A stretch of DNA of 64,000 bases from contig CANUEZ040000020.1 of the NCBI GenBank assembly GCA_948099385.1, forward strand, positions 8,588,501 through 8,652,500, written 5' to 3'. A model generated the notes under the pieces. That model was not told where the DNA came from. It saw only the letters and a program-made list of their open reading frames with translations, and ran no database searches. Of this stretch, positions 1-62,111 are shown one piece after another. The stretch is from Fasciola hepatica. Its lineage: Eukaryota; Platyhelminthes; Trematoda; Plagiorchiida; Fasciolidae. A program made the position numbers and the translations under genes. The stretch's first letter is position 1, and each line of letters starts with the position of its first letter.

Positions 1-2441
1 TTTCTAATTTTCATAAGCTCCAAAGGAACCGAACCATTTTGTCCATCGTCAAAAGAGTCGTCGTCCATATGCCATTCTGTTACGAAAAATGTGGCTCTAG
101 CCCCAATATCGATGACGAGATAATCTCACCGGATGGTTTTTCTGAGCTTCATTTAGTAGGTATTATGGTGATGAACGATGGTGTACGGGTAATAGCTATA
201 ACTATCCTACTACCCATATCACTTTCTCTGTTCTTGAGTAGAAATCTAGACACCTCTAACCAGAAGTCTGTCATCTACGGCAACGTTTAAATTTCCCACT
301 CTTGTCTTCCGTCTGATTTCGACGGATTCCCCAAAATGGCTGCGGTAAACGCACTTTCTTATATTATTGTTATCTAGTATTACGAGGGTTATGTAGAGGT
401 TCGTCGTCAACCCAGTCTGCTGCGTGAACCATGTACTTGACTCGAATGGTGTTCGTTTGAATTAAATTGCAATAAGCAAGCGGATGAGAGCCACTCTGGT
501 AAACTAATGTAAGTTAACGTTGCTTTCGCAAATCATTAGTTATGTGGGTTTTTCATTCGTCAAATTTGACTGTGCGTTTTGCTACCAGGAGAGCAAATAA
601 GTCACTGCCAGTAGTAGTTTCCACCAAACTTTCAGAATGGATCTCATCTTGCATACTCAAGTAATCCGGAAATGGGTGGACAGCTGTGAGTATAAGATAT
701 TCCATGGATATCTTGGTTGGACTTGCCTAAAGTACAGGTTGAATCTTAAGGGTTTGAAAAATCATCAGATTTCATTTCTACCTTTTTTCTTGGTCCTTAT
801 TTATCGTGATAAAATATTTTCAAAATCAGCTGAAAAGTATGCTACAAATATACTCACATTTGTGAACTGATTTTTGAAGTACAAAAATAAATATGATTAA
901 CAAGTGAATAACATTTATTATATAGGCATACATCATTTGACGACATGAATATTCTGAATTCACGGGGCATTTTTCGGTAGAATTTACCTTTTTCAATTTA
1001 GTTCCATTTAGATTACTGTTTTCCTTGAGGAAGCACGAATTCAATGATATTTGTGGGGACAAATGTCCCGCATTCACAGATCGTTGCTTTATTGATAGAA
1101 ATGGTTCTTTGGTCACGTACAATGTCAGTGAAGGATAGGTAGTGTGTGAGGATAACCCGCAAGCAACCGAGCAGCACACTCGGAATTCTATTAGTGGAGT
1201 TCAGGATACACAGTCAGGTACTGCTGGTTCCGTGGCATGATCTAGCTCGATGGGTATTAACTGAAGAAAGTTTTTTTCTTACAAGCCAGAGAGGAAGAGG
1301 CGTAGGACAAGTTCTGCCACGGATTTTAACTATCAGTTTGATGCTGAAACTGAAGGGATTGCTTTCTCATGAGCAATTTGGATCACTTACGGAAGAAGAT
1401 GTATCGACCCTCGGAAGCAGGTGGAGAAAGTTAGAGCTGTTCTATTTAACTACTGAATGGAACAAAATGTTACACTTCTTCAGAGTTTATTGTCGAAAAA
1501 CTGTTAGCTCATTAGACACATTTATCAATTCGATACTTTGGAAAATGCGACCAGGGGGGCAGCATACACCCTTCCTTTTATGCACTAAGCGAATAAGACA
1601 CGCCACTCTGAATGTGTTCAGACTTCACTCAAATCAAGGCCACCACTAATTCCATTCAAATTCAGCTCATTTCAAATTAGCTACGCAATTTTTAATTCTA
1701 TAAAACTAAGGGTAAACTTCTTTCTGCTTTGTAGATCTAATTATCTACAATTTTTAAGCAACTATACACTATTACCTACTGAGTTCATAAATCATTGCGG
1801 CATTTCCGAATGATTTCAGAAATTTCGGATTAGTGATCTCTTAACTAAAGTAATTTACAGAAATACAAAGAGACCTAGCGATAAATTTCCGTTGGGTGAC
1901 CTTGAGTGTTTGATTGTGCGAGAATCAAAGTGAATGTCAAGGTGAGCATGAGCCAAGCATCAATTTCTCGTTTAATACAAATAAAGCCAGAGATGTTTTC
2001 AAGATTATAAATTTGCACAACTTTCTCGGCAATATCCGTTCATTAAAAGTATTTATTGAATTATAGTTGGATAGCAAAATTATAAGCTGTTAGTATTACA
2101 ATTTGTAGATATAATGTAAAAAGCCATTAGAGTGAAATAGATAATTCTCTCGAAGCAACACTTAACCAGGCCTGATTTCAAATTAAAAGACAGAACTGAT
2201 GATGTTGCTGCTGTGTGCCACTAGTTACCGCCTACAGTCTGATTGGTGTTTATGATTGGTCAGAAAAATTGCCAATGAAAATTCAGGACCAGGAAGACAA
2301 ACCGCTGATTGGCTATGGAATATCTTCACTAAAATGTATAACAGTATTGAAGCATTTGGAATAGTCTCTGTCAGCAATACGATTTTCAGGAAATCACTCT
2401 AATGAACCAATACTGATAGTGTATTATTATTACTGTTCTGT
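1..2441. other. No supported gene upstream of the GPCR
   Basis: No coding region here can be supported. The longest open frame (1146-1649, +, 167 codons) shows no motif I recognise, has no flanking gene context, and is not long enough to exclude chance. A short stretch at 636-685 is bounded by an AG acceptor and a GTGAGT donor, but two frames are open, so it is not called. The promoter and any 5' non-coding exon of the GPCR may lie in this stretch; no convincing TATA box was identified. Confidence 0.5.
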
Positions 2442-3761
2442 ATGGAAGTCTTCAAGACTGACAGTTGGCCTGAAGCCATCCGACCATGCCCTTTCATGCA
2501 AAGTCAACACGTGGAAAACGGCACTGGTACTTCGAACGAAGAATTAAATCCGTTGGCTCGATTTGGTCAGAGATTTGGGGAGTTACATGGACCACTGAGT
2601 CTGGCTCTATGTTTTTTCGGTATTCCAACCAATTTGGCAAATATTCTGGTTTTAACCAGAACATCCATGTCACAGTCTGCAACTAATCATTTGCTTTTCT
2701 GGCTTGCTGTCGCGGATTTGATCACCATGCTACTCTATGTCCCGTCGTTGTATCATTTTTATATCGTTCGTCCCAACCCCATTCGCAGTCCTATGTACAG
2801 CCCGTACAAACTTTGGGTGATATATCAAACAGCCGCAGCTAGTGGGTTGATCATATTTCATTCATTGGCTTTGTGGATAGCTGTGGTTTTGGCTGTCTTT
2901 CGATATCTGTATATTGGATTCCCAACAGTTGGTCCAATATTAGCCACAAAACTCCGTGCATTCCTGTCAGTAATTATCCTGACTCTGTGTTGTGTTGTGT
3001 TCGTCATACCTAATGCATTGATAAACTATGTCGATCGGTGTTACGGGACAGTGTGGATCCCAGTGCGGCCTACGTTACGAGAAAACATGTCAGCCAAATA
3101 CGACGTGTACTATTCCGTAGGATTTGAACCCTATGAGGAAGACTCGTCGCTGCATGATGTTGCTGCCTGGCCAAAAAAGGAGCTGTACGCTATCAATACT
3201 TGGCTCCAAGCAAGTTTATTCAAAATTGTACCTTGCTTCCTATTGTCAGTTCTCACTGTTTTGCTGGTCTGTCAGATGAAAAGAGCAATCCGACGAAGAA
3301 AAGCTTTGCAACCAACAGCTGCCAGGAAACAGGTGAAACAGTTGTTGAAAAATAATCAAAAAGACAACCGGAATCAGCAGCATTCTGAGAACAGAACAAC
3401 TACGTTGTTACTGGCAATTTTATTGACCGTCCTTGTTGTGGAATTACCTCAAGGCATCCTTGTTTTGTGTCTTCAGCTGATTGAAAATTTCTATGTCAAC
3501 GTTTATCAGCACCTGGGAGACTTTATCGATTTTACAACCCTGGTCAACGAATCCACGAATTTTGTCATCTACACTACAATGTCCCACCAGTTTAGACAAG
3601 AATTTTGTCAATTATTTTTGATCGATAAAATTCGAGATTTTGTCAGACAAAAGTGCTGCACAAAAGAGGAGCGAAATTCGAAAGGACAAGAGAACTCGGC
3701 CACTTTGAAAAGGTTGAACGCACCAAATGATATTTGCTGTGCGACAAGTTTTCCGCTTTGA
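2442..3761 (+). CDS. Rhodopsin-class GPCR, myosuppressin/FMRFamide receptor-like (DMSR/Srw group)
   Basis: A 439-residue seven-transmembrane receptor in one uninterrupted frame, expected at the plasma membrane and coupling a neuropeptide signal to G proteins. Approximate segments: TM1 50-71 (GIPTNLANILVLTR), TM2 84-106 (LAVADL), TM3 126-152, TM4 172-194, TM5 254-278 (KIVPC, then basic RRRK), TM6 319-347 (ELPQGIL), TM7 356-379. N-glycosylation sequons sit at Asn26 (NGT) and Asn215 (NMS). FRYLYI (153-158) stands where DRY normally is, and NFVIY (373-377) replaces NPxxY. These substitutions, KIVPC, ELPQGIL and the MSHQFR after TM7 are the pattern I associate with the DMSR/Srw-type peptide receptors. 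Cys200 lies in the second extracellular loop, but no obvious partner Cys is seen at the top of TM3. The start is the first ATG after an in-frame TGA at 2403-2405. The ligand is inferred from family resemblance only; subfamily could be another FMRFamide-type receptor. Confidence 0.93.
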   Translation: MEVFKTDSWPEAIRPCPFMQSQHVENGTGTSNEELNPLARFGQRFGELHGPLSLALCFFGIPTNLANILVLTRTSMSQSATNHLLFWLAVADLITMLLYVPSLYHFYIVRPNPIRSPMYSPYKLWVIYQTAAASGLIIFHSLALWIAVVLAVFRYLYIGFPTVGPILATKLRAFLSVIILTLCCVVFVIPNALINYVDRCYGTVWIPVRPTLRENMSAKYDVYYSVGFEPYEEDSSLHDVAAWPKKELYAINTWLQASLFKIVPCFLLSVLTVLLVCQMKRAIRRRKALQPTAARKQVKQLLKNNQKDNRNQQHSENRTTTLLLAILLTVLVVELPQGILVLCLQLIENFYVNVYQHLGDFIDFTTLVNESTNFVIYTTMSHQFRQEFCQLFLIDKIRDFVRQKCCTKEERNSKGQENSATLKRLNAPNDICCATSFPL

Positions 3762-8320: not shown

Positions 8321-8668
8321 TATACACGGTCCTCAGGTTTAGAAACACTTGCGCAGTGTTACCAAGAAAATCGGTTGAAAGAAAATATGGAGGACATTAT
8401 GGTTCAAATAGAAGAATTTGCCTGCTTTATTCAAGTCCGTATGCAAAACAAGAAAGGAAAAGGTGGTGGCTTTGAAACCTACATCAGTTCTAAGTGGTAC
8501 TGCATGTTCTAGGTACTTTTTCCTACTCATGCGACGGAATCGATGGTTTATCTGTATCACGTTCCCCTAGATTCTCTCGTGTTGGTTGAGTTATCATTGC
8601 TTTAGCAGACTGTTCTATGGACTCCACCCTCCCGGCAGAAACTTCAGGCCACCTGACTTACCTGTACT

Positions 8669-8724
8669 GGGAAGCTCCAGACTCGAGTTTCGCTCTTGTT
8701 AGAGCTCATCAGTGGTGCATATCC
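8669..8724 (-). ncRNA. Hammerhead ribozyme, complete core
   Basis: On the minus strand every conserved core block is present: CTGATGA at 8712-8706, GAAAC at 8691-8687, and the cleavage triplet GTC at 8682-8680. Stem II is GCTCT/AGAGC, five perfect pairs around AACA. Stem III is minimal: after the A-U pair a single C-G pair closes TCGA, and CTCGAG is palindromic. Stem I begins CCA/TGG, has one A-A mismatch, then GC/GC, an internal loop, and GGA/TCC. The predicted cut lies between 8680 and 8679. The very short stem III suggests that cleavage may need dimerisation, as reported for other minimal metazoan hammerheads; that is inference. Confidence 0.85.
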
Positions 8725-8737
8725 TCTGCCACACTCA

Positions 8738-8790
8738 GGATTTGAACCCTGACCATTTTAACCTCAAAAGTTTGTGTTACTACTGTGCCA
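8738..8790 (-). promoter_or_regulatory. RNA polymerase III-type internal promoter (A and B boxes)
   Basis: Minus strand: TGGCACAGTAG at 8790-8780 fits the A-box consensus TRGCNNARYNGG except near its end. GGTTCAAATCC at 8748-8738 fits the B-box consensus GGTTCRANNCC exactly. The roughly 30-bp spacing is tRNA-like. A true tRNA gene is unlikely because no acceptor stem closes. Confidence 0.65.
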
Positions 8791-8994
8791 CCCTGCTCGC
8801 GTCCGGGCTGATCCGAATCACCACGGTAAGCTTATTCAGATGTCGACCTCTGTGACAACCAGAGATGCCCGACAGCTGAAACAAAGACCGATCAATCCCA
8901 CATACTACTCGCAAGTAATTCCGTGAAACCTAATTTATCATTGGTAAAATTTGCGTAAAACCACAGTGCTAACAAACCTCAGTTACCACTTTCC

Positions 8995-34104: not shown

Positions 34105-35663
34105 GAATCTGCATTAGTGATAAGGGTAATGCCCTAGTATTTTAGTGATTATTGGAAAGCATGTTTAACATTGTAAATTTAAATTACCGGATGATTTTGT
34201 GATCGAATATTTTCTTCCTGTTCGCTCTCAGTATTGAGCCGTCATTTTATCACGCAACGCAGATAAAAGAAAGTTTTTTTACATGCAGCCATTTATTTGT
34301 AGATACTAACATAAATAGGTTATTGGGATTCCTGAACCTAAATGGTTTTCGACCGGAAAGCGTTGTAGCTGCTTTTTCGAGATCCCGGTGAAAAAGCTAC
34401 GTGGTTATTATTCCATGGAAGTAATCAGCGGTGAGCTGAATGGGAATGCTTCCTGATAAAGCTTTGAGGGAACATCTTTACGGATCAACCTATGGTCGAC
34501 AACATGCAGTCATCATGAACTACTAGATTTAGGCAACATTTTCAAAGTCGTCTGTACTATCCATCCATCTCAAGCTGCTGAAACATTTCTAACCATATAA
34601 TCAGTTTTCCTTCAACAGATTGATTTTATATTCAGTATCTGACTATATGCAAACTCTTCTTGCCTGTCTTTCTAGCAGTAGTTCTGTTTGAAAGACTAAA
34701 GGGTCTTGTGATTTTATTTTTCTGTATATTACCGAAGGTTTGATTTCATAGTGATCTCATTCTGTTTTACCGGGTAGTAAATTCTTGAATAAACTTAACA
34801 TTATTGCTGTCACTGACTACTGATACATACAAACGTTTACCGTGCGTATTACTCTGAAATAAATGAGCATAAAACACACTTGAGTTGGATTTTGTGTATT
34901 TTCAATGTGTTTTGGTGCTGGAGGTTTACTTCCCTTCTATCTAGCCATAGCTAATGCATGTCTTAGTGTTTGTCGTTCATTGTTCAAACCATCCTCAGAG
35001 TGCTTAACAGCAGAGAAAAGAATTTTGATACAGCACCGGCTGATTATGAATGTCTACACGGAAAAGACCATAATCGGGCATATATCTAACCTAATCTGTA
35101 CACTGCTACAAGTTCTAAACAATCCATAAAGTACATGATCTGCAGCATAAGATTGAATGTCATTTGTCTGTAGGATGAATGTAAACTTTTGTTTTGAGAC
35201 TGTCTGATGCTAAAGGGGATTTTCACATTTTCCTGGAGAACGTTTTTAATTATCCAATGCAAATTTGTTCCCAAATGTTAACACTAACGTAGATAATACA
35301 GTAATTGCTCCGAGCCTGTCATAATTCTTAGCAGAAATTGAATGCTCTCCTACTCTCAAAAATCTAGATGATATTTCCTTTCTCATCTTGAAGGAGAAAG
35401 TAATGGGCGCGAAGTAAAGCACGTAAAACAGATGAACTCAATTGTGGTTTCTTTAACTTCGCCAAGAAATCGGTGACTGATATTGCACCTGAAAATGTAT
35501 TAATTGCCATTCTGAACACTATTCATCCAAAGTTTACACTATTAAGGCACGAAAACGGAAAAACGACAAAGTTTATCCTCTGGAATGGCAAGTATCAACC
35601 AGATGTACAACTTTTCACATAACACGAGATTCATCATTTAGTGTGAAGTTCCAAGCGACCAAA
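34105..35663. other. No supported gene
   Basis: Short frames only. A small imperfect hairpin (GCTTTTTC paired with GAAAAAGC) lies at about 34370-34400. Confidence 0.45.
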
Positions 35664-35752
35664 GATCATGGACGCCCTGTTCATCCTTTTCACCCGAGTC
35701 AGAGATCATCAGCAATGCGTATCCAACGAGTCCCCCAAGTGAGACTCGAAGC
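35664..35752 (-). mobile_element. Ribozyme-SINE relic, antisense copy
   Basis: Minus strand reads a B-box remnant (TTCGAGTCTC), GGATACGCATTGCTGATGA, an altered stem II and GTCCATGATC. It aligns with the head, ribozyme and tail order of the 61.9-kb element. CTGATGA is kept (35712-35706); GAAAC is degraded. The head upstream of the B box is missing. Confidence 0.6.
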
Positions 35753-35754
35753 TG

Positions 35755-35841
35755 GATTGATGATTCCTAAAAGGGATGATTCAGGTGTGCAGTGTTTCCA
35801 TGATTTTCAGAGATTTCAACTTTCACACTACATGATGAATC
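35755..35841 (+). mobile_element. Ribozyme-SINE relic, sense copy
   Basis: Reads TTGATGATTCC, a loop, GGATGATTC, GTGTGCAGTGTTTCCATG and, further on, CATGATGAATC. This matches the ribozyme 3' half and tail of the 61.9-kb element, including a shared ATGATGAATC near the end. GAAAC has become GATTC, so no activity is expected. It faces the antisense copy with almost no spacer, making an imperfect inverted repeat. Confidence 0.6.
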
Positions 35842-36863
35842 TGAAATAACGTGGAGTCTAATTTCTTACTACTCACTCGTACAACTTTCGTCTGGAGAGA
35901 TTGTGCGTTCATTTAGAAGTTAAATGACTTATTATCGTGTAGAATGAGACCACATGCAATTCGAGGAAATAGTATTATGTCTTCAATATTCTGAAAAACT
36001 TCGTGTAGTTTATCAATAAACTCTACCTTTTGTGTAGCTACCTAAAGGACGATACTTACTTATTAAGATGTACGAAGATATCAATGGTTCAGTGATTTAT
36101 ATTACTTCACGAAACGGGCTTTCATATTAAAGCATTTGATTTGGTTGGTCATTCGGCAATACATCTCAGTCCGGTGATACGTCCATACCAAAGACCAATT
36201 GATGTTAAAAGCCTCACTTCTCTGACTGTTATCGGCATGCTAATAGGTGGCGTTACCACAATTAAGGCAACACAGTAGAACATTTTAGATCCTTTCAACA
36301 GAATGAATTTTTTATTTTTATCAAAATTATCCGAATAAAAGTCACACAGCTCGAGTTTTTGTAAACGAGCGAAGTTCCCTTCAGTAACCTAGTATTAATT
36401 TAAAAAGCATATCGTAATTCCCTGCTACTTATTTCGCTTTTGTCGAAAATTTCTTGTTTTCTAATGATGAATGTTTACGGAAGATAAAAAGCGCTATCAG
36501 ATTATATCGTCCGTGGGTAGGCAAACAAAATCCCAGTACCGTGCATTCAGTCATTAATAACATGCAATAACTAACTAAGTGTAAACGCAATTAACTGAAT
36601 TTCAGAAATTTGGTGGTAACTATTGTCTGTTCTAATAAATACATCACACAGATTCGCGCCGCAGAATGCTGCACACAAAAACATTTTGGTCTCTATTGGG
36701 GCTTTGTTTGGTTCTCCATTCCAAGTCCCATTTTCATAATTTCCGACCACGAAACTTTAGAATGAGTTTTGTTTTGAAAATGGAGCATGCACGTTCTGTT
36801 GCCGTCACGCGTGAGCAGAGAATAGAAAAAGCCTCGTGTTTCTAACATTTCCGGAGTCTTTAG

Positions 36864-38501: not shown

Positions 38502-38565
38502 CTATAATCATTAGCATAAATTTTAGTTCAATATGAAGACAAGTTTTCAAATGTTGTTGATGGAT

Positions 38566-38718
38566 TACAGCTGTAATCTCATTTGAATCGAATGGAGCGT
38601 GAATAAACAGGGAGTCCATATTTAGGATCACACTCTTCGAAAGAATCACCGTGTGATTCTAAAAATGGACTCCCCGTCCATGCACGTTCCATTCGATTCA
38701 AGTGAGATTACAGCTGTA
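38566..38718. repeat. Large hairpin: 68-bp inverted arms, 17-bp loop
   Basis: Left arm 38566-38633 and right arm 38651-38718 are reverse complements at 60 of 68 positions. Both ends carry TACAGCTGTA, itself part of the palindrome TTACAGCTGTAA. The arms contain AATCTCAYTTGAATCGAATGG and GGGAGTCCAT. No coding frame spans it. It lies about 50 bp before the hammerhead at 38769. Confidence 0.88.
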
Positions 38719-38768
38719 GACCAACTGTGGAGCGCTCAAGTAGAATGATAATTGGGCGGAAGAGTACC

Positions 38769-38821
38769 GGGTACTCATATCTGATGAGCGGCTATAACCG
38801 CGAAACCTGTAGTGTGTTTCC
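38769..38821 (+). ncRNA. Hammerhead ribozyme, all core bases present
   Basis: CTGATGA at 38781-38787; stem II GCGG/CCGC, perfect, around CTATAA (38788-38801); GAAAC at 38802-38806; cleavage triplet GTA at 38809-38811. Stem I is CATAT/GTGTG (two of five pairs are G-U), an internal loop, then GG/CC. Stem III has only two closing pairs and a two-base CT loop, shorter than in the 8.7- and 61.9-kb copies, so activity as a monomer is doubtful. No tRNA-like head precedes it, so it belongs to a different element from those copies. Confidence 0.72.
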
Positions 38822-38885
38822 GGGGAATTTTCGCCCTATCATCCAGATACAATGCCATACTACTCATGTTGATGATGGATGTTTT
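38812..38885 (+). repeat. Dispersed repeat unit downstream of the hammerhead
   Basis: TTTCCGGGGAATTTTCGCCC, then CATCCAGATACAATGCCATA and CTAC. The same order recurs at 49283-49352 with a few changes, which shows that the ribozyme is part of a dispersed repeat. Boundaries beyond this core are unclear. Confidence 0.7.
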
Positions 38886-38889
38886 TATC

Positions 38890-41651
38890 AATTAGTGGGA
38901 AAATTATCCCACCCTTTTGAAAGTACATGCCCTTTTCAACTAAATGCACCTATATAAAAGGTGCGCAAGGTTTCGCCTCCACTGACAACCTTTTTGCTTG
39001 TTGTAATTCACCTAACTTATCGAGTGAATACACGGATACATAGAAACCACTCTTTCGGTGATCAACAAAATCATTCAACTACTTCAAAACTTTTTATTTA
39101 TACCACAGCTATCCCGTCCACGTTAAGCCTGAGTTCTTTTGGCCGGCGGATATAATCATATGGCTTACATGCTTTACTCTCTTATTGCTTTCAGCATGTT
39201 TGACGTAATTGTGTTCACTGTCGCCCCTCAACTGTCCACACTGCTTTGAGTAGTAAACTACTTACTTCCTCAATGGGTAGTATGTTTAATATATATAATT
39301 GTGAAAGCCAAGTTTTCATGTATGCATACTGATGCTGAACGCAGATTGTTTGGGAATGTGTCAAGCCTTCTGTGAGTCAACGATGCAGAGTGTGAGAAAC
39401 AAGTATGTTCCGAATGCGTTTTGGAAACCATAGAACAGTGAACACCGTTTCACAAGTATACATTTGTTGCCATGAAAGAATTACTAACGGGGATGGTGTA
39501 AATTAGGACACAGACTCATTCATATTTCTATCATTCAGACTGGGCAATCCTCCAGTCAGTCTTTTAGCCCAACGAAGATGGCTATATTCGACACCCAATT
39601 CCATTGACATCTTTGAGGTTCTACGTGTATGGATAGGAAAAAAAGAATGAGAAGGCTCCTAATTTGAAAACCTGCTTACTATGGAATTCTGAGTACGAGC
39701 TTTAAGTAACCGTTTTCGGTCACAGATGGATATGTCTACTTAATCGCCTAATTTCGTTGTTGAATAAAACTAAATACTTTAGATTGTTTCATATGAATGC
39801 TTGTTTCTTGTTGTTTTGTCTTGAAGCTAAAGCAAACTAAAAAAAACCTTTCTTAAGCATATGTGAGTGCTTGATCGAGAAAGACTTTTTAACGGCAAAT
39901 CACAGATGTGCAATGGAAGTACGCTGACCTATTATTTGTGTGGAAGTATTTTATTAGACGTAAAACAGCAGCTTAGAAAAGGTCAACGTGTTTTTCTTTC
40001 TCATTGTTACATCAGTTACGCCGATTGCAACAACTAGTAGATCAATTTTCACATTATCAGAACCAGTCCTTCGAAACAATCGTTTATTGTAGTAAGAAAT
40101 GATTTTATACTGACACTTTGGGTTTATGTGACTTTATCATTATTGTTATTACCAGCAAAAAAGAACGAAACCATTATGCCATATTTGATGCACACCTATT
40201 TAAAATTAGTAAAAACTCTAGTAAGAAATGAAGTTCAAGTTCGGTCCCCCGGTAGGGAGGTAGGCAGAGACAGAACGGAACCTATGGTAATGATATAAGC
40301 TTTGTCTATCACTTTTACCATAATTTAATTAAATGATCCACATGGTTATCATGGGCAATATTCACTTCGTTGTTCAAGTTTTTGAACATAAAATTTACAG
40401 ATTATCCTCAGGTAGCTACGGCCGTAAATAAAACCGTAAACTGTCATTTCTGATTTATTTCTTATCTCCACATTCCCACAAAAGAATCTACTGAAGACTG
40501 GTTAGTACATTTCTTTACCACATCAAAATGCGGACATTGGGGTTCAAAGAACCACAAAACTTCCACTTTGTTTCAATCATCTTACGCTTAGCCTCCTCAC
40601 ACGTTTTCGTTACGTGTTTGGACAGAATATACACAAGGCGATTCCAATTATCCCCGAATTCCTTTGCTTTTTATCATTTCACTTTTATTTCCATAAGACT
40701 TGTAATTATTCTAAAATACGGGCTACGTGAGATTTCGATAATTCTTTAATTGAACAAAAGTTCCAGAGGAATCCGAATTTCCCGCATGACCTTGCTTGGC
40801 AGCTTTGAAAGAAATGCGAATAAAACCGTACGTTAAAATAGTAGAATCTAATTCCAGGCATTCACCAGAATTAATACGTGTGCACGAGACTGTCCTTTGT
40901 TGTCAGAGACAGGCCAAATCTGTTCAATTCCTCGGGTACCATATGACTTACGCAGCTGGTAGCACACTGGCGGAAATGAATTCGGAACGGCGTGGTTTGT
41001 AGTTTGATACAATCACCTTCACTGTGTTTGTAATGCTAACAAGTGTAAAAGCACTTCAAATGCTAAAGAGGTGCATTGGTATACGACCCCAGGAATGTAG
41101 TCAACTCTTTTGGGCAATGAGCACATTTGCCCTATATCCGGAAAAGTGAAGATAACCCTACGATTCGTAATTCAGGTAATTTTTGCACCGACCAGTCCTG
41201 TAAACCACATTTCTCCATATCTGTGAGTTTCGTGGTCTATAATTTCTCAAGAAATGTTCGAAACACCAATGAGAAATATATATTGGATCTTGTTCTTTTA
41301 AAAACCAGGCCACATCGTCATCACACGTTGAATTCGCACAATACCATTTCAACCTGAAGAAGACCGGAATGAAATGGGAAAATAACTCCTCAGTCGGATA
41401 AGGCCAGATGTGCCCTGACCGTTACCAATAACGTATATTATTTACCAAAAGATGGATCGGCATTTTGGCATTTAAATTCCCTACCACACAGCAAATGTGA
41501 ATTATAAAATATTGCTTAGATTTTTAAAATGTAAATCTTTTATGAACAATAGGCAACTCGGAGCAGATAGGGGAAAATATCGAGAATTGATCGTATACTT
41601 TATTTCAGCTGTAGAGAATAGTTGAATGATTTGTCGGAAAATGGCTTTTAA

Positions 41652-49282: not shown

Positions 49283-49352
49283 CATGGGTTGTGTGCTTCC
49301 GGGGAAATTTTGTCCCTCATCCAGATGCAACGCCATACTACAGCTTTCGAAA
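49283..49352 (+). repeat. Second copy of the hammerhead-linked repeat unit
   Basis: GGGTTGTGTGCTTCCGGGGA, AAATTTTGTCCCTC, then ATCCAGATGCAACGCCATAC. It matches 38812-38880 but starts inside the ribozyme's stem I 3' strand: the CTGATGA/GAAAC half is absent. A 5' end close to the predicted cleavage point is what a copy of a self-cleaved RNA would look like, though a simple truncation is equally possible. Confidence 0.7.
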
Positions 49353-59600: not shown

Positions 59601-61842
59601 CACTGATCAACACGGACAGGTTCCAGCAATTTAATAAGTAAATTTCCCCAGGCGTGACATCATGATTTACGGAATAAATTGCATCGTAACGCAAAAAGAA
59701 GGCGTTCATCATGTGACTCATCAATTTCGCGTGCTTGTGTTCAAATTTCACCGCGAATGTCAAATGTTTTATTGAGTTACTGAGTAAACTTGTTGCCAGA
59801 TCCGTCAACTTTGATCGGAAAATCATCTCATTGAGTTTTACGCGGGTTTTTGAAGACCGTTTAGATAGCCGTAGGCTCTGCGAATAGTAGACAACAACAC
59901 CAAGTGGATGTGTTAATTACTTAGAATTAGCGCTGAACCGATCAGCTAAAAACGATTCCGCTAAAACAGACAAAAATGAAGGAAAAATACGGTCCAAAAA
60001 CGTAGTAGAACCAGAGGCAATAAAAGTATACGGGGTCAACAAGTGCGCCGCTGGTCAGTAAGCTGCAGTGGTTCTAAATGATTCAGCCACACCAAATAAA
60101 ATCTCCTTTGTAAATATGATTATTTCGCCTTACATACGGTAAAATAAGTGTTCATCAGGTCTTATTTTTGATCCAAAAATTTGAAACTCCTTATTGCTGT
60201 TCAATTCAGCGGGGTCCCGGGAATGAAGCTAACATCCGCTTTCCCTGTTTTTGTTACTAAGTAGAGAGAATCCAACTAAAAATTATCTTTTTTGAAATTC
60301 AGTTTGACAAAAAGTCATTAAAAACGATGCTGGGATTATTTTTTATTCTGCTCAACTTAACGAAAATAACGATGACCAAACAAATGCGAAGAAACCCATC
60401 ACATCCACTTCCACCCTTGATTATTAGATACACTTTCAGACCAACCAGTGTGCTTTGCAGTTGCCCTTCTGCGTGCATCATATTTACGTTGATGGGTATT
60501 GCTTTCGCAATCAATAAATGTGTGGCACAGATCTCGCAATGCATGTCCTTTGCCCATTATGTTGCATGCAAAGTCAGTCCTTTTTTCTAGCACTCTTCCT
60601 TGCATAATTATGTTATAGCAAATGGACATTATTTAGCTCGCATTCGATCGTGTTTGAAATCGCTCGGTATCCAGATGTACTAGACTTTTAATGCAGACAT
60701 GGAAACACTGTCCATGATGAGCAAACCCTCACCGAGCAATGGAATGGAAGGTCAGATAGTTATTTCTGTTTGCACGTACTCCGAGAGTTTCCGCTGTCGA
60801 CTGTGCTTTTCTAGTCAACTGTCAAACGTACTTGGAAGCTCACGGGCCTATTTGCATTTCACTGATTTTGTAAGTCGAATGATCTCGAGAAATAACCCCT
60901 GAAGAATGTCCCTACATGGCAAGTTTCCAGACTCTTCCGTTAACTGTTCGTCACGCAACCAGCCGTGCCTTTCACCATACCGCATGGTTTGTCATTGTAT
61001 ACTGAGGCATCACAAATAACCATCTAAGAACTATTACGACTCCGCGGTAAAACTTTACGATGAGGATGGTTTTGGAGTCAGGGTAAACAAGCATTAGGGG
61101 AAACATTTTCAAAAGTAATCAGCCTCAACGTAGTTCCAAATTCACTCAGCCACATAGGCAGGTTCTAACGTTTATGTGTGTCACTATTTTTTATCCGCTA
61201 TCACTTTTTCGCATAAAAAGACAAAGGAGCCGTTGTTCAAGTGGCAGAAGCGGGTAATGGGGTCAGAGAATTACTGAACACGATATATATATATTTTGTT
61301 ACCCACTGTACCCCCTGTGATGACCTCAACAGGCTTTCTGTTGTCCGATTGGGACAACAGAAACGATACCTTCACCATGTGGAATCCTATACAACCTTGA
61401 ATACGTGGGTAGACAACATTTCACTTCATAGTACACATGCACGTAAATTACAAGCAGTCACACAGATTGAACAGAAAGTGAGGGTGTACAAAAGTTCCTT
61501 TGATAGCAGTGATAATTGCTTTTGAGCGTGTTGCTTGAGTTAGACTTTCATGATGCAGGCTTTTAAACCCACTCAGACAGTAAATAAAAAGGTCAAATTA
61601 CTTGGAAATCCGTTGAATTTATTGAAGTATTATCCTCCGGTAATTTATTTGCTCCAGCTGTTCCATTGCCCACTGATTAGCAGTCAGTCAAGTGGATTTT
61701 CCAGAAATCCATTTCTAACTATTTATTCATATAATCTAACACGTGGAATTACCGCGCTATATTTAACAGTATTTGGCTTCGACTTTCATTCATACTAGTA
61801 TCACTTACAAGTATATAATATGATTCATCATGCAGCTTGAAC
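56697..61842. other. No supported gene
   Basis: Short frames only on both strands (largest about 94 codons at 61241-61525, +). A minus-strand stretch ending at 57372 has a good donor (CGAA then GTGAGT) but no clear acceptor. Confidence 0.4.
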
Positions 61843-61866
61843 GCTCAACTCACCATTGAAGACCAT

Positions 61867-61921
61867 GGAAGCACTGTACAGCTGTTTCATCCTTGTTGGG
61901 AATCATCAGCAGTGCACATCC
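61867..61921 (-). ncRNA. Hammerhead ribozyme, slightly degenerate
   Basis: CTGATGA at 61909-61903, GAAAC at 61888-61884, cleavage triplet GTA at 61879-61877. Stem I GCACTG/CAGTGC is perfect, then an internal loop and GGA/TCC. Stem III is C-AGCT-G within palindromic CAGCTG. Stem II keeps three pairs and the AACA loop, but its first pair is a T-T mismatch where G-C is expected, so activity may be reduced. Confidence 0.7.
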
Positions 61922-61936
61922 ACCGAGCCCCCACAG

Positions 61937-61990
61937 GGACTCGAACCCGGGGTGAACGATTGTGAATTGAACACCTTAACCACAAAGCTA
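61937..61990 (-). promoter_or_regulatory. Pol III-type A and B boxes
   Basis: Minus strand: TAGCTTTGTGG at 61990-61980 (A-box-like) and an exact B box GGTTCGAGTCC at 61947-61937. Confidence 0.6.
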
Positions 61991-62111
61991 TCCGGGCTGG
62001 CTCTCAAAGGCTTGTTGAACATCTACACTACATGATATAGCAACCTTCCGTCACTGGCTTTTGAACGGTAACAACCCGCTTCCCACACAAGTATATTTGG
62101 TTTGGTTTTCA

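Follow-up and report, generated by a model that had tools for sequence, protein, structure and literature searches.

The window analysed here, a stretch of 64,000 nt from Fasciola hepatica, carries on its minus strand a sequence that a first-pass annotation had taken for an apparently intact hammerhead ribozyme in a tRNA-headed retroelement copy that looked young enough to work. The locus raises the question of what kind of element this sequence belongs to, and by what machinery such an element is inserted. The most informative feature bearing on this question is a head-to-head pair of element copies with two different 3' ends and a single target-site duplication, which lies outside the segment to which the first-pass annotation had drawn attention.

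Structure of the insertion

When a real copy of the same family from elsewhere in the genome (L005) was used as the blastn query, a minus-strand copy at 8601-8877 was found to abut a short piece of the family's 3' end in plus orientation at 8873-8926. The long arm (8600-8877, minus strand, 81-84% identity) is a 5'-truncated copy that ends at a short (S) site at about 8600, and it lacks the linker as well as the segment that corresponds to q22-74 of L005. The short arm (8873-8934, plus strand, 81% identity over q345-397, followed by tail sequence) is a 3' end of the family, here called family A, and stops at a long (L) site. At the head-to-head junction (8873-8877) about 5 nt are common to both arms, as judged from the overlap of the two BLAST alignments. 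The pair is flanked by an exact 9-nt repeat, TTATCATTG, at 8591-8599 and 8935-8943; among random pairs of 35-nt stretches of the window, a shared word of at least 9 nt occurred in 13 of 3000. Since the inverted arms abut and TTATCATTG flanks them, 8600-8934 is best read as one insertion.

Hammerhead motif

The minus strand from 8718 to 8674 reads GCACCA-CUGAUGA-GCUC-UAACAA-GAGC-GAAA-CUCGAG-UC-UGGAGC, which can be arranged base by base as a type I hammerhead, with the core CUGANGA...GAAA...UH, three stems and an open stem I. The core is complete (CUGAUGA at 8712-8706, GAAA at 8691-8688 and a GUC triplet), stem II is a perfect helix of 4 bp (8705-8702 with 8695-8692), and the predicted cleavage site falls between 8680 and 8679, all as the first-pass annotation had it. 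Stem III is short and palindromic. In stem I one pair is broken: the sole change in the hammerhead of the window copy, A8676, gives A8716.A8676 where most copies have A-U, and the plus arm of L007 and the minus arm of L028 share this change.

An Rfam scan of the window copy found no family at its gathering score, so that one of the refuting outcomes named at first pass, no covariance hit above threshold, applies to this copy; the best match was Hammerhead_HH9 with 32.9 bits (cut-off 52). At permissive thresholds this match has an E-value of 1.5e-6 when 451 nt are searched and of 2.1e-4 when the search space is the entire 64 kb. A hammerhead match was obtained in all 13 sister loci scanned, only one of which (L012) exceeds a cut-off (RF00163, 35.3 vs 34 bits). 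The E-values together with the sister loci indicate that the hammerhead is genuine at the family level. Among the 36 family-A arms aligned with the motif (one arm is cut inside it), 13 had the core and all the listed pairs intact. Judged from these comparisons, the motif at 8718-8674 is more than a chance resemblance.

Pol III-type boxes and organization of the unit

Upstream of the hammerhead and in the same orientation, pattern matching confirmed an A-box-like word, TGGCACAGTAG (8790-8780, minus strand), with one mismatch to TGGCNNAGTGG, and a B-box-like word, GGTTCAAATCC (8748-8738, minus strand), with a full match to GGTTCRANNCC. Between the two boxes lies TTTT (8769-8766, minus strand), a possible pol III terminator that could stop transcription there. 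The family-A copy at L016:1700-2200 has no run of four T and carries both the A box (TGGCGCAGTGG) and the B box (GGTTCAAACCC) of a tRNA-derived SINE.

The layout of the whole unit can be seen in L018, a direct tandem in which tail, linker and head are joined and recur every 449 nt. From the start of the linker to the A box there are about 220 nt, so that the tRNA-like part is internal and is not the head of the unit. The 5' head of tRNA-derived SINEs is a tRNA-like segment; here about 220 nt precede the A box, and a tRNA-headed element, as first proposed, was accordingly rejected. The head sequence (from q22 onwards in L005 numbering) recurs in most full-length copies. No open reading frame for reverse transcriptase (RT) and GIY-YIG, the hallmark of Penelope-like elements (PLEs), was found: the longest stop-free frame is 104 codons in a doubled family-A unit and 54 in the window insertion. 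Family A can therefore be at most a non-autonomous passenger. The features of retrozymes, i.e. tandem units of 150-450 bp, a type I hammerhead and no coding region, are present both in family A and in the related family B described below (units of 449 and 401 nt; longest stop-free frames of 104 and 64 codons).

Age and condition of the window copy

The copy had been thought young enough to work. Among the 40 of 2596 candidates scored, full-length matches to it are at most 84% identical and partial ones at most 86%. Counts from the match searches, in which 40 of 2596 and 40 of 5154 candidates were scored, are lower bounds and are biased to query-like copies. Compared with the family majority, the window arm differs at 42 of 225 bases outside the hammerhead and at one of 52 inside it. 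In the other arms, 56 of 1848 hammerhead bases and 580 of 9561 remaining bases depart from the majority; in these comparisons the bases are not independent and the search is enriched for query-like copies. The lower divergence inside the hammerhead hints at constraint on the source copies, short of proof.

The minimum-energy RNA fold of the window stretch as a monomer is not a hammerhead. Two strands folded together are predicted to form a double hammerhead joined via the 8-nt palindrome ACUCGAGU. With full-length identities of no more than 84%, the mismatch in stem I, the monomer fold and the TTTT inside the putative promoter, a young functional copy was rejected; the window copy is old and damaged, and probably non-working. 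What survives of the first description is a hammerhead retroelement with pol III-type boxes, at the level of the family.

Family A across the genome

The family-A set comprises 24 distinct insertions, namely the window insertion and 23 others, taken from two sets of 20 and 8 loci drawn from 48 and 65 matches, respectively, and is biased toward copies resembling the query. Duplicates were removed (L001, L022, L023 and L024 are the same places as others), and the near-identical L019 and L029 were counted once with L018 and L028. Seventeen insertions are head-to-head, none is tail-to-tail, two (L008 and L018) are direct tandems and five are single. The family has two 3' ends, S (...AAACAAAT) and L, the latter about 46 nt further on. 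All 16 pairs with readable ends consist of one S arm and one L arm, which has a probability of 2^-16 if each end is chosen independently; L026 is also head-to-head, but one of its outer ends is unreadable. Flanking repeats of 9-16 nt reached a score of at least 8, with mismatches penalised, in 9 of the 24 insertions vs 3 of 552 pairings of mismatched loci. Head-to-head copies, a tail on one arm and a short duplication are features of PLEs, and family A has all three. Seven of the 24 insertions have no readable second arm, and a search of these revealed no convincing remnant (L008 is a weak candidate).

The two arms of a pair resemble each other more than they resemble arms at other loci (combined p ~3e-5 for 15 family-A pairs). 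L002 and the window pair, whose arms have too little overlap, and L011 and L018, which are not head-to-head, do not enter this value. Private variants common to both arms occur in L013, L020 and L025. In L020 and L017 the first base of CUGAUGA is changed from C to G, in L020 in both arms. As the element at L020 was mobilised despite this break in the core, the ribozyme is not a strict requirement of every event. The head-to-head pair of L020 (G000:C20:8567323-8570573) lies upstream of the window hammerhead, at a distance of about 28 kb. In a density sample, nine readable 6-kb stretches (54 kb) contained no family-A copy and the tenth (L038) was all N; a sample of 54 kb is too small to give the copy number of the family.

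A second family with tandem arrays

Family B, which is related to family A and has a clearer tRNA-like segment, occurs in the same window. The copy at 61811-62080 (minus strand) consists of a tRNA-like segment and a hammerhead with the triplet GTA, and ends at the S site. It scores 28.8 bits for Hammerhead_1 and 23.5 bits for tRNA in cmscan, both under gathering; the hammerhead has a GUA site, and a T.T stands in place of the first pair of stem II. Its identity to full-length family-B copies is 96-98% among the 40 scored out of 3707 candidates. An older head-to-head pair lies at 35628-35875, with a minus arm at 35628-35750 and a plus arm at 35758-35875 (blastn, 71-73% to a 401-nt unit).

Elsewhere family B forms tandem arrays of 400-401-nt units, and in contigs C149, C163, C43 and C30 a minus block is followed by a plus block, i.e. 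the blocks are head-to-head; the middle of the C163 array is known from search hits alone. Seven hits on contig C251 are spaced at multiples of 400 nt over about 90 kb. In the unit L072:1501-1901 the S site is at position 270 and the L site at 301, which leaves a tail of 31 nt. The four family-B pairs with both ends readable (L066, L067, L007 and C163) are all S+L, and their outer repeats are 6, 15, 13 and 8 nt long, respectively. This count omits copies that are decayed or have an unreadable end (L035, L052, the L018 stretch and the window pair at 35628-35875) and also the arrays C30, C195, C149 and C43, for which fewer than two ends were read. The pair of L007 (1995-2454) is situated where a long tail of family A ends, and its 13-nt outer repeat belongs to that tail, so that one such element was inserted beside another.

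In C163 a private variant at position 146 is common to the units and the opposite arm, and in C19 one at position 179 is present in both arms. In C102 position 163 distinguishes the plus arm from the minus arm, while the two units of one arm agree; one template per insertion is therefore not general. Mean identity of units within the C30, C195 and C163 arrays is 99.1-99.6%, with some internal variation in C30. The variants fit reverse transcription of a circular or multi-unit RNA, sometimes from one and sometimes from two source RNAs; it is possible that the arrays grew later by unequal exchange.

Penelope-like elements of the same genome

When the genome was searched for GIY-YIG and 150 of 302 candidates were scored, at least 90 matches emerged; open frames of 798-869 codons contain 11 of these, and some have tandem or inverted neighbours. 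Among the 19 loci examined, inverted arms with an outer repeat of at least 8 nt (actual lengths 9-12 nt) were found in five rows, which correspond to four insertions (L051, L057 = L058, L060 and L061). All four are head-to-head and S+L: one arm ends at about ...ATTCTACCAT, and the second extends 61-65 nt beyond this point. Inverted arms are also present in L040/L042 (the same place), L044 and L050, which were not counted with outer repeats of just 7 nt. Over the three kinds of element the S+L combination is found in 24 of 24 readable pairs (family A 16, family B 4, PLEs 4).

The search for a partner PLE was negative: blastn of families A and B against 23 PLE loci gave no tail match that counts, family A being absent from these loci, and a motif scan for PLE open reading frames near family-A copies did not point to a partner. 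An Rfam scan of 18 PLE loci detected no hammerhead. One PLE locus (L052) holds an old B-like pair; the part of this locus common to L048 and L049 is 995-1796, and since the pair is located beyond it, it looks like a separate insertion. L060 (G000:C72:4550200-4559900) contains tandem PLE copies with a period of 2752 nt and a third copy head-to-head, with 100% matches; it has an 11-nt outer repeat and looks like a recent insertion, and a hammerhead scan of it recognised none.

Other features of the window

A third family, C, is represented at 38560-39000 (plus strand) and more weakly at 49288-49341. Its hammerhead-like motif (HH9, 23.5 bits, below gathering) adjoins a palindrome with 68-nt arms (38566-38633 and 38651-38718) as well as the word TATATAAAAGG. 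Family C has at least 69 matches genome-wide (40 of 4208 candidates scored), some of them in inverted pairs, and could be a pLTR of a PLE. At 2439-3761 (plus strand) there is a gene for a G-protein coupled receptor in one uninterrupted frame (PF10324, PF00001), whose product, in a database clustered at 90% identity, matches a protein of Fasciola hepatica at 100% and one of Fasciolopsis at 78% identity. This is in keeping with a Fasciola, probably F. hepatica, although at this level of clustering a different species of the genus is also possible.

Comparison with known elements

The schistosome element Sm-alpha contains A and B boxes, and the pol III boxes come before the hammerhead. In the available text of PMC2770079, Sm-alpha is described as SINE-like, tRNA-derived and hammerhead-bearing; together with PMC8490949 this covers Sm-alpha and Sj-alpha of schistosomes, the unit of Sm-alpha-like repeats being 335 bp. 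By description, the Fasciola families are like these elements in their hammerhead, SINE-like character, tRNA derivation, high copy number and trematode host. They differ in the approximately 220 nt that precede the A box, and in the head-to-head S/L pairs, which do not figure in the accessible descriptions of Sm-alpha and Sj-alpha (PMC2770079, PMC8490949). Metazoan non-LTR retrozymes, as summarised in the available part of PMC7229834, likewise have a type I hammerhead and duplications longer than 4 bp, and their tandem units measure 150-450 bp (449 and 401 nt in families A and B). In contrast to those retrozymes, the families described here have pol III-type boxes in the unit and head-to-head S/L ends.

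A parallel in insertion anatomy is offered by PLEs such as the Pen families of A. vaga and PAc of Anolis. According to the accessible text of PMC3846280, Penelope copies can have an adjacent inverted pLTR, head-to-head being the commonest inverted arrangement, with duplications of 8-10 bp and a 31-bp tail that is optional on one inverted pLTR; here the tail is on exactly one arm in 24 of 24 readable pairs. A PLE protein has been found to cut both target strands and to extend them from two internal start sites, one at each boundary of the tail; the hammerhead, which was dispensable for insertion in vitro, lies slightly upstream of these start sites, as it does here (PMC11167929). Unlike PLEs, family A has no RT/GIY-YIG open reading frame.

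In the literature that names both Fasciola and hammerhead (PMC8490949 and PMC5993326 included), titles and abstract openings, with few subscription papers among them, mention no hammerhead element of Fasciola. The words 'ribozyme' and 'retrozyme' are absent from the main text of PMC11270206, which deals with Fasciola transposable elements.

Mechanism of insertion and alternative explanations

We consider it likely that the window insertion is a non-autonomous hammerhead retroelement, similar to Sm-alpha and to retrozymes, that was inserted by Penelope-type target-primed reverse transcription. The hammerhead motif, the S/L ends, the head-to-head geometry, the duplications, the tandem units and the PLE parallel can all be read directly from the sequences. 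A PLE-like protein, acting in trans, would make staggered cuts in both target strands and so give rise to duplications of about 9-16 nt. The element RNA, which may be a pol III transcript, would then be reverse transcribed from both target ends, each serving as primer at an internal site: S for one end and, for the other, L, which lies 31-65 nt more 3' in the different families. The resulting cDNAs would grow inwards, usually remain 5'-truncated, and be joined, often at microhomology, so that a head-to-head pair results. In some arms two or more tandem units are present, which implies that the template RNA was multi-unit or circular; hammerhead processing, if the RNA cleaves itself, followed by circularisation would supply such a template. 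Against the involvement of PLE machinery, none of the 23 PLE loci gave a tail match to family A or B that counts, 18 PLE loci showed no Rfam hammerhead, and in 7 of the 24 family-A insertions no second arm can be read. Moreover, the start site was alike on both strands in PMC11167929, from which strict S+L pairing would not be expected, and the hammerhead was dispensable there. The broken core of L020, the differing arms of C102 and the bias of the sample to query-like copies also count against this reading.

Other origins have to be weighed against this one. A chance hammerhead-like sequence, or an assembly artefact of inverted repeats, is hardly conceivable. The window copy does score under all Rfam gathering cut-offs, but its HH9 E-value in the 451-nt stretch is significant, hammerheads are present in the sister loci, and the core and listed pairs are intact in 13 of 36 family arms (with one arm cut inside the motif). 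In addition, departures from the majority affect 3.0% of the bases of the motif, compared with 6.1% and 6.0% on either side of it, and the pairs occupy different sites, each with different duplications; a chance motif was rejected. If the element were an ordinary SINE derived from a tRNA, of the Sm-alpha type and mobilised by a LINE, the A and B boxes, the hammerhead and the target-site duplications would be accounted for, and the inverted pairs might result from twin priming or nested insertions. We think this improbable, since the A box lies some 220 nt within the unit rather than at the head and all 16 family-A pairs are S+L, a pattern shared by the GIY-YIG PLEs of the genome. Both arms, moreover, carry the same region (e.g. 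in L016 and L020), which simple twin priming of one RNA cannot give, and this form of the explanation was rejected.

It is also rather unlikely that the insertion is a solo pLTR of an autonomous PLE carrying a tRNA-like segment and a hammerhead, instead of a free-living non-autonomous element. Its anatomy is indeed pLTR-like, with a hammerhead followed downstream by the S and L ends, and in the available text of the respective papers PLE hammerheads without a proper stem III (PMC7761336) and solo pLTRs (PMC3846280) are on record. However, the direct tandems L008 and L018 join tail, linker and head with no open reading frame between, family B forms long arrays of 400-401-nt units, family A is missing from all 23 PLE loci, and the B-like pair of L052 falls outside the common PLE stretch.

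Penelope-type insertion of a non-autonomous element, which we prefer, can be extended to an ordered process, although we regard this extension as speculative and would not expect it to hold as a whole. PLE insertion would be ordered with two RNAs or priming events, one for S and one for L, and the hammerhead would join RNAs and make circular templates that give rise to arrays. The RNAs would be joined by the palindromic stem III (ACUCGAGU in family A and ACAGCUGU in family B), and the circles would be copied round and round into long head-to-head arrays. If so, the ribozyme would serve template dimerisation and circle-making, beyond cutting.

Implications

PMC7229834, in its available part, calls autonomous PLEs 'a strong candidate' for the mobiliser of animal retrozymes on the grounds of shared traits and co-existence. 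The insertion anatomy shared by two hammerhead families and the PLEs of one genome bears on which enzyme moves the short hammerhead elements of animals, and provides a structural link to the candidate mobiliser. The S+L rule contrasts with the tail that is optional in the accessible text of PMC3846280 and with the strands that did not differ in PMC11167929. Different start sites for the two arms, as seen in 24 of 24 readable pairs, thus constitute a sharp prediction for the biochemistry of PLEs.
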